A DNA stretch of 64,000 nucleotides from Bacteroidales bacterium (GTDB lineage: Bacteria; Bacteroidota; Bacteroidia; Bacteroidales; UBA932), in the NCBI GenBank assembly GCA_017627955.1, contig JAGAFU010000038.1, positions 1-64,000 on the forward strand, in the 5' to 3' direction. Every line of letters begins with the position of its first letter. The stretch's first letter is position 1. Below are positions 31,997 to 60,568 of the stretch, one piece after another. The notes under the pieces were generated by a model. The model was not told where the DNA came from. It worked only from the letters and a program-made list of their open reading frames with translations, and searched no databases. A program made the translations under genes and the position numbers.

Positions 31997-32152
31997 TTCA
32001 GGGAGAAGGGGATGCGTCCCGGGGGGGCGCACCCGCGGAGGATGAGGCATCGCCTTCTTTGGTTTATGGCGTCGCGGGTCGTCGGGTGATGTACCATCTT
32101 GTGATCAGCAATTTTGCTGATTCAAAATCATTCCCCTTTTCCCTTTTATCGG
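31997..32152 (+). other. Structured leader before the reverse transcriptase
   Basis: 156 bp without a gene. It has GC-rich blocks near 32010-32040 (TCCCGGGGGGGCGC) and a hairpin at 32104-32121 (ATCAGCAA, TT, TTGCTGAT) followed by a pyrimidine-rich stretch up to the start codon. It could be a terminator for the upstream gene or a leader RNA of the RT gene. I could not fold it into a retron-type msr/msd. Confidence 0.45.
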
Positions 32153-33415
32153 ATGGAAAGCATAATGAGTCAGATCATGAGTCAGGAGGTCTGGGACGGC
32201 TTCCTGGCCCATCGTCTGCGTAAAGGCCGCTTCACGTGGCGATCTTTCGTCGCCGCTGACGATTTTGTCGATTCGGAGACATATCACCCGGTAGTCCGCC
32301 GTCTTTCCAAGGGGAAGGGAATTGGCATCCCCTTCAAGACAGTCATTAACAAGATGGGGAGCGGGAAAAAAAGAGTCGTCTATCATTTCGGCAACCAGGA
32401 GATGGCGGTCCTCAAACTCATTTCCCATCTTCTTTATCGCTATGACAACCTGTTCGCTTCAAACTGCTACGCTTTTCGCAGGGGTAAAAGGGCTTCGGAC
32501 ACCATCTTCCGGCTGAAAAGGGAGATCGGGGGCCGGAAACTGTGGGCATATAAAGTGGACATCCACGACTATTTCAACTCCATTTCCATCCCTATCCTTC
32601 TGCCCATCCTTTCCCGGATATTCATAGACGACCCGAGGTTATATTCCTTTTTCGAGAAACTGCTGTCTGATGACCGCGCCTATTCCGGCGAAAAACTGGT
32701 CCGGGAAAAAAGGGGAGTGATGGCCGGGACCCCTACCGCGCCCTTCCTCGCCAACGTCTATCTGATGGAAGTCGACCATCATTTTGAGAATGAGGGAGTT
32801 ATCTATGCGAGATATTCGGATGATATCCTGATACTGGCTGACACCGAGGAGGAGCTGACGGCCAGAAAGAACGAGCTGTTGGACTTTTTCAAGCAATACC
32901 ACCTTGAGGTCAATCCGTCGAAAGAACATGTTTACGCACCTGGGGAAGCTATTGATTTCCTGGGGTTTAGTATGGATGGAACAGAGGTCGGCGTCTCAAA
33001 GTCGACACTAATGAAAATGAAGGGAAAGATCCGCCGCAAGGCCCGTTCCCTCCACCGGTGGGTTTCGAAGGCCGACAAGGATCCTATGTTAGCCATGAAG
33101 GCCATGGTCAACAGTTTCAACAGGAAGTTCTTTGAGGAAGGTGACCCTGACACCCTTTCATGGTCCCGGTGGTTCTTCCCGGTCATAAACTCAACGGAAG
33201 GACTCGAGGAGATCGACCATTATCTTCAGGACAACATCCGCTTCCTATCTACCGGGAAGCATAATAAAGCCAACTACCGAGTCCGGTACGAGGACATCAA
33301 GGCTCTCGGCTACCGCAGCCTTGTCAACGAGTATCACAAGTTTCGCCAAAATAGAGTATATTCGCGCCCGGTTTTTTCAGACAGGGATGATACGTTTGAT
33401 AATATTAGATTTTGA
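32153..33415 (+). CDS. Stand-alone reverse transcriptase (unclassified)
   Basis: 420 residues from the ATG at 32153; ATGs at 32165 and 32177 are alternatives. RT palm motifs: KVDIHDYFNS (134-143, first catalytic Asp), GTPTAPFLANVYL (192-204), YARYSDDILIL (YSDD at 221-224) and IDFLGFSMDG. A helical thumb-like region follows (LHRWVSKADKD..., YLQDNIRFLSTGKHNKANYR). There is no maturase-type HNH endonuclease, integrase or nearby intron RNA domain V, so it is not an obvious group II intron. The block-4 Gln-Gly of intron RTs is Ala-Gly here. The end overlaps the HAD gene by 29 nt. Its role is unknown; retron, DGR, defence (DRT/UG) or housekeeping lineages are options. Confidence 0.88.
   Translation: MESIMSQIMSQEVWDGFLAHRLRKGRFTWRSFVAADDFVDSETYHPVVRRLSKGKGIGIPFKTVINKMGSGKKRVVYHFGNQEMAVLKLISHLLYRYDNLFASNCYAFRRGKRASDTIFRLKREIGGRKLWAYKVDIHDYFNSISIPILLPILSRIFIDDPRLYSFFEKLLSDDRAYSGEKLVREKRGVMAGTPTAPFLANVYLMEVDHHFENEGVIYARYSDDILILADTEEELTARKNELLDFFKQYHLEVNPSKEHVYAPGEAIDFLGFSMDGTEVGVSKSTLMKMKGKIRRKARSLHRWVSKADKDPMLAMKAMVNSFNRKFFEEGDPDTLSWSRWFFPVINSTEGLEEIDHYLQDNIRFLSTGKHNKANYRVRYEDIKALGYRSLVNEYHKFRQNRVYSRPVFSDRDDTFDNIRF
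33357..33364 (+). promoter_or_regulatory. -7-like box TATATTCG inside the RT 3' end
   Basis: TATATTCG followed by CGC, 22 nt before the HAD ATG at 33387. It suggests the HAD-EamA pair has its own promoter inside the reverse transcriptase gene. Confidence 0.4.
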
Positions 33416-43106: not shown

Positions 43107-44198
43107 ATGGCAGAGAACACTCTGATAGACAAGATCCTGGCTCTCCAGGATAAATACAACTCACTGCAGGTCCAGCTTTCGGATCCCGCGGTGATAGCTG
43201 ACATGAAGAAATATGTCCAGCTCAACAAGGACTACAAGCAGCTTGAGCCGATCGTGAAGACCGGTCTTGACTATAAGAGAAAGGTTGAGGAACTGGCTGA
43301 CGCGAAGGATATCCTGATCAATGAGAAGGATGAGGACCTTCGTGAGATGGCTAAAGCGGAAGTGGCTGAGATTGAGCCTCTTCTTCCCCAGCTTGAAGAG
43401 CAGATCAAGATTTTGCTCATCCCCGCGGACCCCGATGACGCCAAAAACGCGATTGTTGAGATTCGTGGCGGCACAGGTGGTGATGAGGCCGCGATTTTTG
43501 CCGGGGACCTTTTCAGGATGTATTCCAAATTCGCCGAGAAGAAGGGCTGGAAACTCGAGGTCAATGACTCTACTCCAGGCACTTCCGGCGGTTTCAAGAT
43601 GATCGTTTTCAAGCTCTCCTCCAATGATGAGGGTGTCTATGGGATCATGAAATACGAGTCCGGTGTCCACCGTGTGCAGCGTGTCCCCCAGACTGAGACC
43701 CAGGGTAGGATTCAAACCTCGGCCGCTTCAGTGGCGGTGTTCCCTGAGGCCGGTGAGTTCGACGTGGACCTCAAATGGGAAGATATTCGCCTGGATCTGT
43801 TCTGTGCCTCAGGCCCCGGCGGCCAGGGTGTCAACACGACTTATTCGGCCGTCCGCCTGACCCACCTCCCGACAGGTCTCGTGGTCCAGTGCCAGGAGGA
43901 GCGTTCCCAGCTTAAGAACAAGGACAGGGCTTTTGAGGAACTCAGGACCCGTCTTTACAATCTCGAACATCAGAAATATCTCGACGAGATCGGCGCCAAG
44001 CGCAAGACCATGGTCTCCACCGGTGACCGTTCCGCCAAGATCCGTACTTATAATTATCCCCAAGGCCGTGTCACCGACCACAGGATCAACTGGTCTATGT
44101 ACAACCTTCCCGTCTTTATGGACGGGGACATTCAGGAGTGCATCAACCAGCTTCAGATCGCCGAGAACGCCGAAAGGCTGAAGGAGGCTGGAGACTAA
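43107..44198 (+). CDS. prfA: Peptide chain release factor 1
   Basis: 363 residues. Ends translation at UAA and UAG codons. The GGQ motif that triggers peptide release is in SGPGGQGVNTTYSAVRLTH, and the RF1-type recognition region follows YESGVHRVQRVPQTETQGRI. The C-terminal RTYNYPQGRVTDHRINWSMY is typical of RF1. Length is normal. It begins 9 nt after the GNAT-like gene and precedes the preQ1-type leader. Confidence 0.97.
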   Translation: MAENTLIDKILALQDKYNSLQVQLSDPAVIADMKKYVQLNKDYKQLEPIVKTGLDYKRKVEELADAKDILINEKDEDLREMAKAEVAEIEPLLPQLEEQIKILLIPADPDDAKNAIVEIRGGTGGDEAAIFAGDLFRMYSKFAEKKGWKLEVNDSTPGTSGGFKMIVFKLSSNDEGVYGIMKYESGVHRVQRVPQTETQGRIQTSAASVAVFPEAGEFDVDLKWEDIRLDLFCASGPGGQGVNTTYSAVRLTHLPTGLVVQCQEERSQLKNKDRAFEELRTRLYNLEHQKYLDEIGAKRKTMVSTGDRSAKIRTYNYPQGRVTDHRINWSMYNLPVFMDGDIQECINQLQIAENAERLKEAGD

Positions 44199-44207
44199 CC
44201 GAAGGGC

Positions 44208-44237
44208 AGTGTACTAGGAAACCACTTAAAAAACTAG
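44208..44237 (+). promoter_or_regulatory. Candidate preQ1-I riboswitch
   Basis: AGTG (44208-44211) can pair with CACT (44223-44226) as P1. The loop TACTAGGAAAC carries CTAG, which can pair with CTAG at 44234-44237 as P2, and the A-rich linker TAAAAAA (44227-44233) fits the pseudoknot tail of preQ1-I switches (consensus ...TAAAAAACTA). It ends 2 nt before the ATG of a queuosine-precursor transporter that is followed by queF. Binding of preQ1 would lock the A-rich stretch before the start codon and reduce translation. P1 is short, and the specificity base was not verified. Confidence 0.6.
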
Positions 44238-44239
44238 AA

Positions 44240-44920
44240 ATGCGTAAAACAAATTTTTCGCCAGCCTTTGTGCTGATGGCCGTGCTGTTCACGGTGTGTC
44301 TTATCACGTCTAATCTCTTTGCCGCGAAGATTTTCACTATCGGAAAGATAGCCTTGCCTTGCGCGGTGCTGATATTCCCGGTGTCATATATCTTAAATGA
44401 TTGTTTCACTGAGGTTTGGGGATATCGGAAAGCCCGTCTGGTGATTTGGATCGGGTTCGCCATGAATCTTTTTGTGGCGCTTATGGCGATGGTTGCCGTG
44501 GCTCTTCCGGCGGCTCCTTTCTGGACAGGAGGAGAGCATTTCGACTTCGTCTTCAAGATGGCCCCGAGGGTGCTGCTGGCTTCTCTGCTCGCGTTCCTCG
44601 CCGGCTCCACTTTCAACGCGTACGTGTTGAGCAAGATGAAGGTGGCCCAGGGCGGTAAGGGTTTCTCCATGAGGGCGATAGTCTCATCCCTCGCCGGAGA
44701 ATGCCTCGATTCCCTGATATTCATGCCGATCGCCTTCTGGGGAACACCGTTGAAGGATTTGGGCTGGATGATGCTTTGCCAGGTCTCTTTCAAGGTCATC
44801 TATGAGATTCTCATTCTCCCTGTCACCTCTTCTGTTGTCAAGAAACTCAAAGCGGTTGAGGGAGAGGACGCTTACGACACGGGTGTCAGCTATAACCCAT
44901 TTAAGATAACAGACATTTAA
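44240..44920 (+). CDS. yhhQ: Queuosine precursor transporter (YhhQ/VUT family)
   Basis: 226 residues from the ATG at 44240, with about six membrane segments. [40 protein letters not shown] and [16 protein letters not shown] are typical of the COG1738 transporters that take up preQ0/preQ1. It is the first gene after the candidate preQ1 riboswitch and precedes queF by 4 nt. Together they form a queuosine supply unit. Confidence 0.9.
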
Positions 44921-44924
44921 TTAT

Positions 44925-45383
44925 ATGGAAGACAGGAAGAAAGAAGGTCTGTCGGCCCTTGGTCACGAGACCCGTTACAAGATGGATTACGCTCCGGAAG
45001 TGCTGGAGACTTTTGAGAATATGCATCCCGGCAGGGATTACTGGGTCAGGTTCAACTGCCCGGAGTTCACGACACTTTGCCCGATTACCGGGCAGCCGGA
45101 TTTCGCCGAGATCCGGATCAGCTATATTCCCGACATCAGGATGGTGGAGAGCAAGAGCCTGAAGCTCTACCTCTTCAGTTTCCGCAACCATGGCGGTTTC
45201 CATGAGGATTGCGTCAATATCATCCTCAATGACCTGGTCAAGTTGATGGATCCCAAGTACATCGAAGTTCTCGGACTGTTCACTCCCCGAGGTGGCATAT
45301 CAATCCATCCCTATGCCAATTACGGGCGTCCGGGAACTGACTATGAGGCACTCGCCAAGCAGCGTTTCGCCACTCACGAGTGA
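44925..45383 (+). CDS. queF: NADPH-dependent 7-cyano-7-deazaguanine reductase
   Basis: 152 residues, the one-domain type. It reduces preQ0 to preQ1, a step in queuosine synthesis for tRNA wobble position 34. The catalytic Cys52 is in [14 protein letters not shown]; the Glu and His in [20 protein letters not shown] bind substrate. It follows yhhQ after 4 nt and shares its likely riboswitch. A short palindrome TGACAAATTGTCA overlaps its stop codon (45381-45393). Confidence 0.95.
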
Positions 45384-60349: not shown

Positions 60350-60382
60350 GATAATAGATAAGGATTTATATTTTCTTTGCAC

Positions 60383-60568
60383 ATGCATCAAGAGCGCTCT
60401 TATGAGGAGCCGCCAACCGAGCAGCCAGAAGCCACGGTGGCAAAGCGATGTGGATTGTTCAACATCAAAATAAGTATGGCACTATGGAAAAGCATCGCTT
60501 GTACAGGGCAATAGTTACCTTGCCCGGTATAGATAACAAAAAAGCACCGGGAAAACCGGTGCTTTTTT
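60383..60568 (+). ncRNA. Candidate small RNA
   Basis: About 185 nt without a gene. Upstream is TTTCTTTG (60373-60380), one base off TAnnTTTG. Within, AAGCGATG (60443-60450) can pair with CATCGCTT (60493-60500), and GGGCAA pairs with TTGCCC (60507-60524 region). It ends with a strong intrinsic terminator (60541-60568). A free-standing transcript is likely; its family is not known to me. Confidence 0.45.
60541..60568 (+). terminator. Rho-independent terminator
   Basis: Stem AAAGCACCGG with CCGGTGCTTT, loop GAAAA, and T6 at the end. Confidence 0.9.

Follow-up and report, generated by a model that had tools for sequence, protein, structure and literature searches.

A candidate class I preQ1 riboswitch next to the yhhQ start codon in Bacteroidales, and a probable copy inside a second transporter gene

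Introduction

Class I preQ1 riboswitches are H-type pseudoknots built from two helices, P1 and P2. According to passages of a 2024 review (PMC11625349), their ligand pocket consists of C17, U6, A30 and a G5-C18 floor pair (Can numbering), U6 reads the ligand edge, and AC before the 3' strand of P1 (P1') is the mark of type II. The same passages name Bacteroidota among the type I phyla and describe type II, for which 521 sequences are cited, as similarly distributed. They also predict translational riboswitches without a Shine-Dalgarno sequence, the absence of which hampers searches.

Here we analysed an element directly upstream of yhhQ and queF in a 64,000-nt stretch of a Bacteroidales contig (the window). 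The type II aptamers of B. subtilis and T. tengcongensis (class I, RF00522) share with it the H-type pseudoknot, AC before P1', U after P1, the G-C floor, an A-rich L3 and the control of queuosine genes. These known aptamers have a longer P1, whereas P1 in the window has only 4 bp and L3 about 7 nt; in addition, the window element is unmatched by RF00522 and adjoins the start codon of an mRNA that has no Shine-Dalgarno sequence. Type III, known from E. coli yhhQ, has the same target gene and the AC motif, and the E. coli representative is described in part of the literature as burying the ribosome-binding region. In the same descriptions type III is marked by UU following P1, by a small loop rich in pyrimidines and by a Shine-Dalgarno tail, AAGG, whereas the window has UA after P1 (UA, UG or UU in its relatives) and a CUAG tail that is no Shine-Dalgarno sequence, so that it falls outside type III. 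Type I has the class I fold and the yhhQ target in common with the window element. Its UC before P1', with two bound ligands in the descriptions consulted, sets it apart from the AC found here.

Results

A predicted 30-nt pseudoknot between prfA and yhhQ

The element lies within the 41-nt gap between prfA and yhhQ, and its letters run in the order AGTG, TA, CTAG, GAAA, C (44222), CACT, TAAAAAA, CTAG, AA and ATG (44240) (Table 1). An earlier sequence-only reading had described a 30-nt element with P1 (AGTG/CACT), P2 (CTAG/CTAG) and an A-rich tail that ends 2 nt before the ATG, and the sequence is exactly so. The gene identities that it gave, yhhQ and queF, were borne out by TIGRFAM-type models (TIGR00697, 102.5 bits; TIGR03139, 173 bits). 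The ATG of queF stands 4 nt past the yhhQ stop codon. C44222, which adjoins the 3' strand of P1, is the equivalent of the specificity base, A44221 and C44222 form the type II mark, and U44212 is the equivalent of U6 (PMC11625349, in the part concerned with the pocket).

Table 1. Positions of the candidate aptamer, its parts and the associated genes (window coordinates unless a locus is named)
Feature	Position	Strand	Basis or remark
Candidate preQ1-I (type II-like) aptamer, 30 nt, H-type pseudoknot	44208..44237	+	Sequence, R1 match, covariation, gene-blind scan
P1 5' strand AGUG	44208..44211	+	G at 44211 is the pocket floor G
U after P1	44212	+	Column invariant in A1 alignment, 23 rows
P2 5' strand CUAG	44214..44217	+	Sequence, covariation
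AC before P1 3' strand	44221..44222	+	Both invariant in A1, 23 rows
P1 3' strand CACU	44223..44226	+	Sequence, covariation
A-rich L3, UAAAAAA	44227..44233	+	Last four A invariant in A1, 23 rows
P2 3' strand CUAG, putative expression platform	44234..44237	+	2 nt upstream of the start codon
yhhQ, queuosine precursor transporter, 226 aa	44240..44920	+	TIGR00697, 102.5 bits
queF, preQ1 synthase, 152 aa	44925..45383	+	TIGR03139, 173 bits
prfA (release factor 1), upstream gene	43107..44198	+	NF001859, 483.8 bits
Second TIGR00697 transporter with embedded candidate aptamer	L026:1477-2142	-	Window's own genus; TIGR00697, 121.3 bits

The element is conserved and covaries in relatives

A yhhQ search of 61 genomes, the window's own included, gave matches in 32. 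In all of the 23 best matches (L001-L023, 46-100% identity, window included) the element stands immediately upstream of the start codon. Five of seven weaker matches (L024-L030, at most 40% identity) lack it within 600 nt upstream; among these weaker matches, the leader of L029 ends at the contig end and the element of L026 lies inside an ORF. Three further weak matches were left out of the leader reading.

The 23 leaders were aligned with plain MAFFT (alignment A1). In its 23 rows the U after P1, the AC before P1', the inner P2 G-C pair and the last four A of L3 are invariant, and the G-C floor pair is present in 22; the exception, L015, was placed two columns off by MAFFT and was kept in, which lowered the pairing counts. 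The fixed bases are the very ones that the literature names as the class I pocket, and the window has counterparts of them all. Around these positions the helices change: P1 occurs as AGUG/CACU, CGUG/CACG, UGUG/CACG, GGUG/CACC, GGGAG/CUCCC, AGAG/CUCU and UGAG/CUCG, and P2 as CUAG/CUAG, CUUG/CAAG, ACAG/CUGC and a bulged form, the outer P2 pair being non-standard in the ACAG/CUGC subgroup (5 of 23 leaders). P1 and P2 together were paired in 88.4% of 207 cells in A1, compared with 74.0% after shuffling and 20-45% in slid controls. The covariation score was 0.367 against 0.119 for shuffled alignments, a value reached by none of 500 shuffles, while pairs changed on both sides and the number of further pair types did not rise above the shuffles in A1 (118 and 131 of 500 as high). 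The comparison of yhhQ-queF leaders that had been proposed as a check thus came out in favour of the element, with both helices covarying.

A strict structural scanner passed 22 of the 23 leaders, missing L015, and matched five times in 676 kb of shuffled sequence. The element is accordingly real rather than a chance arrangement of letters. The motif is short and has no Rfam match, as a coincidence would, and that explanation is nevertheless refuted by the conservation, the covariation, the gene-blind sites described below and the rarity of matches in shuffled sequence; we give it next to no weight. We also noted variants with a longer P1 and an L3 of 12-14 nt that contains TAATTAAAA (L009, L016 and L278).

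The Rfam model does not detect this form

RF00522 gave no match in the window at its gathering cut-off, in the genome at E<=0.001, or in the 151 bases around the element at E<=10, so the Infernal search suggested by the sequence-only reading came back empty. At E<=10 the model likewise matched none of 17 loci that carry the element, the window's locus among them. Since it was equally blind to all of these, the miss in the window reflects the limit of the model more than a fault of the element. The gathering cut-off is the database definition of class I, and the element falls below it; we take this failure as a model limit, not as a structural criterion of the class.

In a phylum sample of 247 Bacteroidota genomes, few of them from this order, RF00522 matched in 19 at E<=0.1 and exceeded its cut-off in one (G167). 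The 18 sub-threshold matches were judged by eye to be chance. The match in G167 (L178) is a type I aptamer with UC before P1', just upstream of a yhhQ (L200); G167 belongs to another family of the taxonomic class.

Since RF00522 gave no match, we built our own search model, R1, from the 23 leaders, the window sequence included. R1 matched the window at 44206-44239 with 47 bits. With 150 of 692 candidates scored, no other match with E<=1 was found in the genome. In the phylum sample it matched 6 of 395 genomes, a figure that is no measure of prevalence, because only 17 candidates per genome were scored.

The DUF805 RNA (RF03081) was considered as the identity of the element and rejected, as it scored 12.2 bits against a cut-off of 51.1, although this was the best of the weak matches in the 151 bases around the element. 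It has a similar hairpin and A run, the source of the 12.2 bits, whereas its above-cut-off matches in relatives continue differently downstream (CGGGGCG...GAGTAGG), and we judged the likeness to be a chance resemblance.

Two other RNAs were recorded elsewhere in the window. An RT-5 RNA (RF03026, 77.7 bits; 32027-32134, + strand) lies directly before ORF 32114-33415, which looks like a reverse transcriptase and whose listed TTG start it overlaps. A SAM-I/IV riboswitch (RF01725, 56.1 bits; 60380-60482, + strand) follows a nitroreductase-like ORF; past it no same-strand ORF of at least 150 aa occurs until 61625, with an opposite-strand ORF in between, and it is possibly an orphan switch.

A gene-blind scan leads to queuosine genes

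We next ran the pattern GTGTNCTWGN{1,6}ACCACNNWAAAAACWAG on a collection of 84,980 species with no regard to genes. At least 119 stretches matched, and together with L051 and L052 from the R1 searches they form a set of 121 sites. In this pattern the outer P1 pair is unconstrained and P2 may take any of four combinations. Among the matches listed, the outer P1 pair was standard at all 121 sites (CG 80, AT 39, TG wobble 2) and P2 was cognate at all 121; the C, the U and the A run are written into the pattern, so that the set is no test of those bases. A quick tree of 117 YhhQ proteins, whose rows had passed a scanner that demands pairing, requires no fewer than 10 changes of the outer P1 pair, three changes each for a second P1 pair and for one P2 pair, and a single change each for two P2 pairs.

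Among the matches listed, the next gene was yhhQ at 107 of the 121 sites and queC directly at 6; a queC match starting 68-134 nt further on was found at another 4 (L124, L127, L162 and L163), and the contig ended within 120 nt at the remaining 4. L127 has a short ORF between the aptamer and queC. Second copies of the aptamer stand before queC in G407, where a 120-residue piece matches QueC with 125.2 bits (whole-protein cut-off 150.3), and before queD in G454 (TIGR03367, 97.8 bits; cut-off 89.25). Every readable listed site thus precedes a queuosine gene, and this, with the covariation in the 23 leaders, supports the earlier identification of the element as preQ1-I.

A protein-binding site, or a leader that enhances translation without any ligand-binding RNA, might also be conserved here, as the element is A-rich and overlaps the initiation region. 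Such a site would hardly account for a covarying pseudoknot with invariant ligand-contact bases, or for queuosine genes at every readable gene-blind site listed, and we regard it as very improbable.

By label, 111 of the at least 119 stretches are Bacteroidota (85 Bacteroidales, 10 Marinilabiliales, the rest placed less closely); the others include 6 Desulfovibrionales, 1 Fibrobacteres and 1 Patescibacteria, and the labels are often those of metagenome bins. The Desulfovibrionales-labelled contigs are L075, L134, L160, L166, L170 and L176 (five Mailhella, one Avidesulfovibrio). In the Mailhella contigs L075 and L134 the motif stands before yhhQ in an operon with queF-like frames, and a queC-like frame in one; the neighbouring frames look native and non-Bacteroidales by eye. 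It is possible that in Mailhella the switch was transferred along with the operon.

The element is restricted to certain lineages

In an order sample of 148 genomes there were 72 TIGR00697 matches. We newly read 62 leaders; this number excludes L029, three partial matches and six leaders already counted in the 61-genome search, all six of which carry the element. The strict scanner passed 22 of the 62, three of them in the ORF-embedded form described below, and failed 40. By eye, 4 of the failures carry a UUCYAG variant and 2 a degenerate or weak form; the other 34 lack the element, longer or more distant family members being among them. In the phylum sample, the 600 nt upstream of the 30 top-scoring TIGR00697 matches likewise contain no type II element; the scanner is blind to type I, which leaves the copy of that type before L200 (G167) uncounted. 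Because leaders without it occur in both samples, the element is tied to certain lineages.

Position and context point to control at translation

Architecture, covariation, fixed bases and gene association were all observed in these sequences, and so was a close spacing to the start codon: among at least 119 sites, 8 of them unassigned, the distance from the aptamer to the start codon is 2-6 nt at 110 of the 111 assignable sites and 9 nt at the other. A spacing of 2-6 nt leaves no space for an intrinsic terminator, which makes control at translation the likeliest mode. Of 115 leaders, 87 have a TAnnTTTG box, which part of PMC7366714 describes as a promoter element, in the 100 nt upstream, compared with 423 of 8736 background stretches. 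With the box so close, a large share of the leader is often the aptamer itself. No such box was seen by eye in the window's own 41-nt gap after prfA.

Shine-Dalgarno-like GGAG, GAGG or AGGA precedes 6 of 45 long window ORFs, defined by a simple rule (13%, against 19% of random 17-mers). Sections of PMC6847099 and PMC9976891 report that Bacteroidetes do without Shine-Dalgarno sequences and that initiation is tuned by mRNA structure and by A at -3. On these grounds we infer that, with preQ1 bound, the pseudoknot shuts over the site of initiation and the 30S subunit is kept out. The sequence-only reading had proposed a translational off switch that hides an A-rich stretch before the start codon. 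The switch itself fits the 2-6 nt spacing and the lack of a Shine-Dalgarno sequence; the hiding of one stretch fits less well, since position -3 in the window is G, not A. We would say that the whole pseudoknot, rather than one hidden A-rich stretch, blocks the ribosome.

The same aptamer might instead act on transcription, through preQ1-dependent pausing or Rho-dependent termination, and the B. subtilis aptamer does work on transcription and pausing according to the part of PMC11625349 that treats it. The 2-6 nt gap is too small for an intrinsic terminator, and an element placed between prfA and yhhQ, in a gap where no TAnnTTTG box was seen by eye, is well situated to control one cistron at translation; transcriptional control is therefore unlikely.

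Under translational control, the pocket that holds preQ1 when it is abundant would be made up of C44222 and U44212, the A at the end of L3 and the G44211-C44223 floor pair. The P1 and P2 pseudoknot would then close, cover the mRNA from about -32 to -3 and deny the 30S subunit access to the yhhQ start codon, which would lower the output of transporter. QueF would probably also be reduced, because its ATG follows the yhhQ stop codon by 4 nt. When preQ1 is scarce, P2 would open, the A-rich tail would become single-stranded and translation would start.

The ligand is most probably preQ1

The window genome (92.6% complete) has a tgt match and no queC match, which fits a salvager that imports preQ0 or preQ1. 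This bears on whether the aptamer might bind preQ0 or another 7-deazapurine in place of preQ1. In the relevant part of PMC10622847, YhhQ is reported to import preQ0 in preference to preQ1 and the Tte type II aptamer to bind preQ0 with a KD of 35 nM, and a genome that has no queC match would import preQ0. On the other hand, the pocket positions here are those of preQ1 binders, and the same part of that source gives preQ0 binding by Tte as 17-fold weaker than preQ1 binding. We consider a ligand other than preQ1 distinctly unlikely. Taking preQ1 as the ligand, translation as the level of control and off as its direction, all of which we infer, the element is very likely a class I preQ1 riboswitch of the type II pattern that blocks translation of yhhQ when preQ1 is bound.

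A second transporter gene carries the motif within its coding region

The weaker match L026, from the window's own genus, encodes a second transporter that is 31% identical to the window YhhQ. Of 393 genomes of the order, 11 contain a relative of it that is 66-75% identical to L026, the next match having at most 44%, and L026 with L292-L302 makes a set of 12 genes. The AAGG-type motifs in these genes were considered as leaders and rejected, as their position proved to be within the ORF.

In all 12 genes a 30-nt aptamer-like segment occupies codons 3-12, starting at ORF nucleotide +7 after the ATG and one variable codon. It consists of AAGG/CCUU, UCGG/CCGA, AC and UAAAAAA and encodes KVSENPLKNR. 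The set follows the pattern AAGG-UW-UCGG-ANA-AC-CCUU-UNAAAAA-CCGR, the one exception being UUGG in L296, where pairing is kept by a U-G; other changes lie in loops or preserve pairing as G-U. No other ten-codon stretch of the 12 genes is as conserved as codons 3-12 (nucleotide identity 0.956, compared with 0.662 in the rest). Among columns with an invariant amino acid, a single codon is used in 5 of 7 within the aptamer and in 0 of 80 past codon 12. In L299 no other in-frame start was seen by eye in the 30 nt after the aptamer. Class-wide, the embedded pattern with up to 2 mismatches was found in 1 of 395 genomes (G505, of the same order) and in none outside the order.

Since the embedded P1 is invariant, covariation is weak here, and support comes from codon choice and the match to the aptamer. 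These suggest that the Bacteroidales class I preQ1 aptamer has probably also moved inside a gene, into codons 3-12 of this second transporter. A ligand-bound embedded aptamer would fold just past the start codon and would block initiation without a 5' UTR switch.

Discussion

Type II has been reported for Bacteroidota, and some of the sites found here may already be among the sequences of the 2014 and 2007 source papers; we therefore do not count the window copy as a new kind. Its kind is already reported, and the new part is the ORF-embedded aptamer in relatives. In the open-access literature, a search for preQ1 or queuosine with Bacteroidetes, Bacteroides or Bacteroidales returned no title about these sites, and the word preQ1 is absent from the main text of the B. 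thetaiotaomicron transcriptome map. Searches of the literature on coding-region riboswitches gave, among the matches listed, no preQ1 case of this kind, though a precedent may exist.

The 30-nt element makes the prediction of translational riboswitches without a Shine-Dalgarno sequence, as worded in passages of the 2024 review (PMC11625349), directly testable. Bacteroidales include major gut bacteria, and the candidate switch was missed by the Rfam model yet is present in at least 119 contigs by a simple pattern. The ORF-embedded copies offer a test of whether a ligand-bound pseudoknot just after the AUG can regulate initiation. If true, a coding riboswitch alongside start-codon-adjacent switches in many species that have no Shine-Dalgarno sequence would widen the known action of translational riboswitches.
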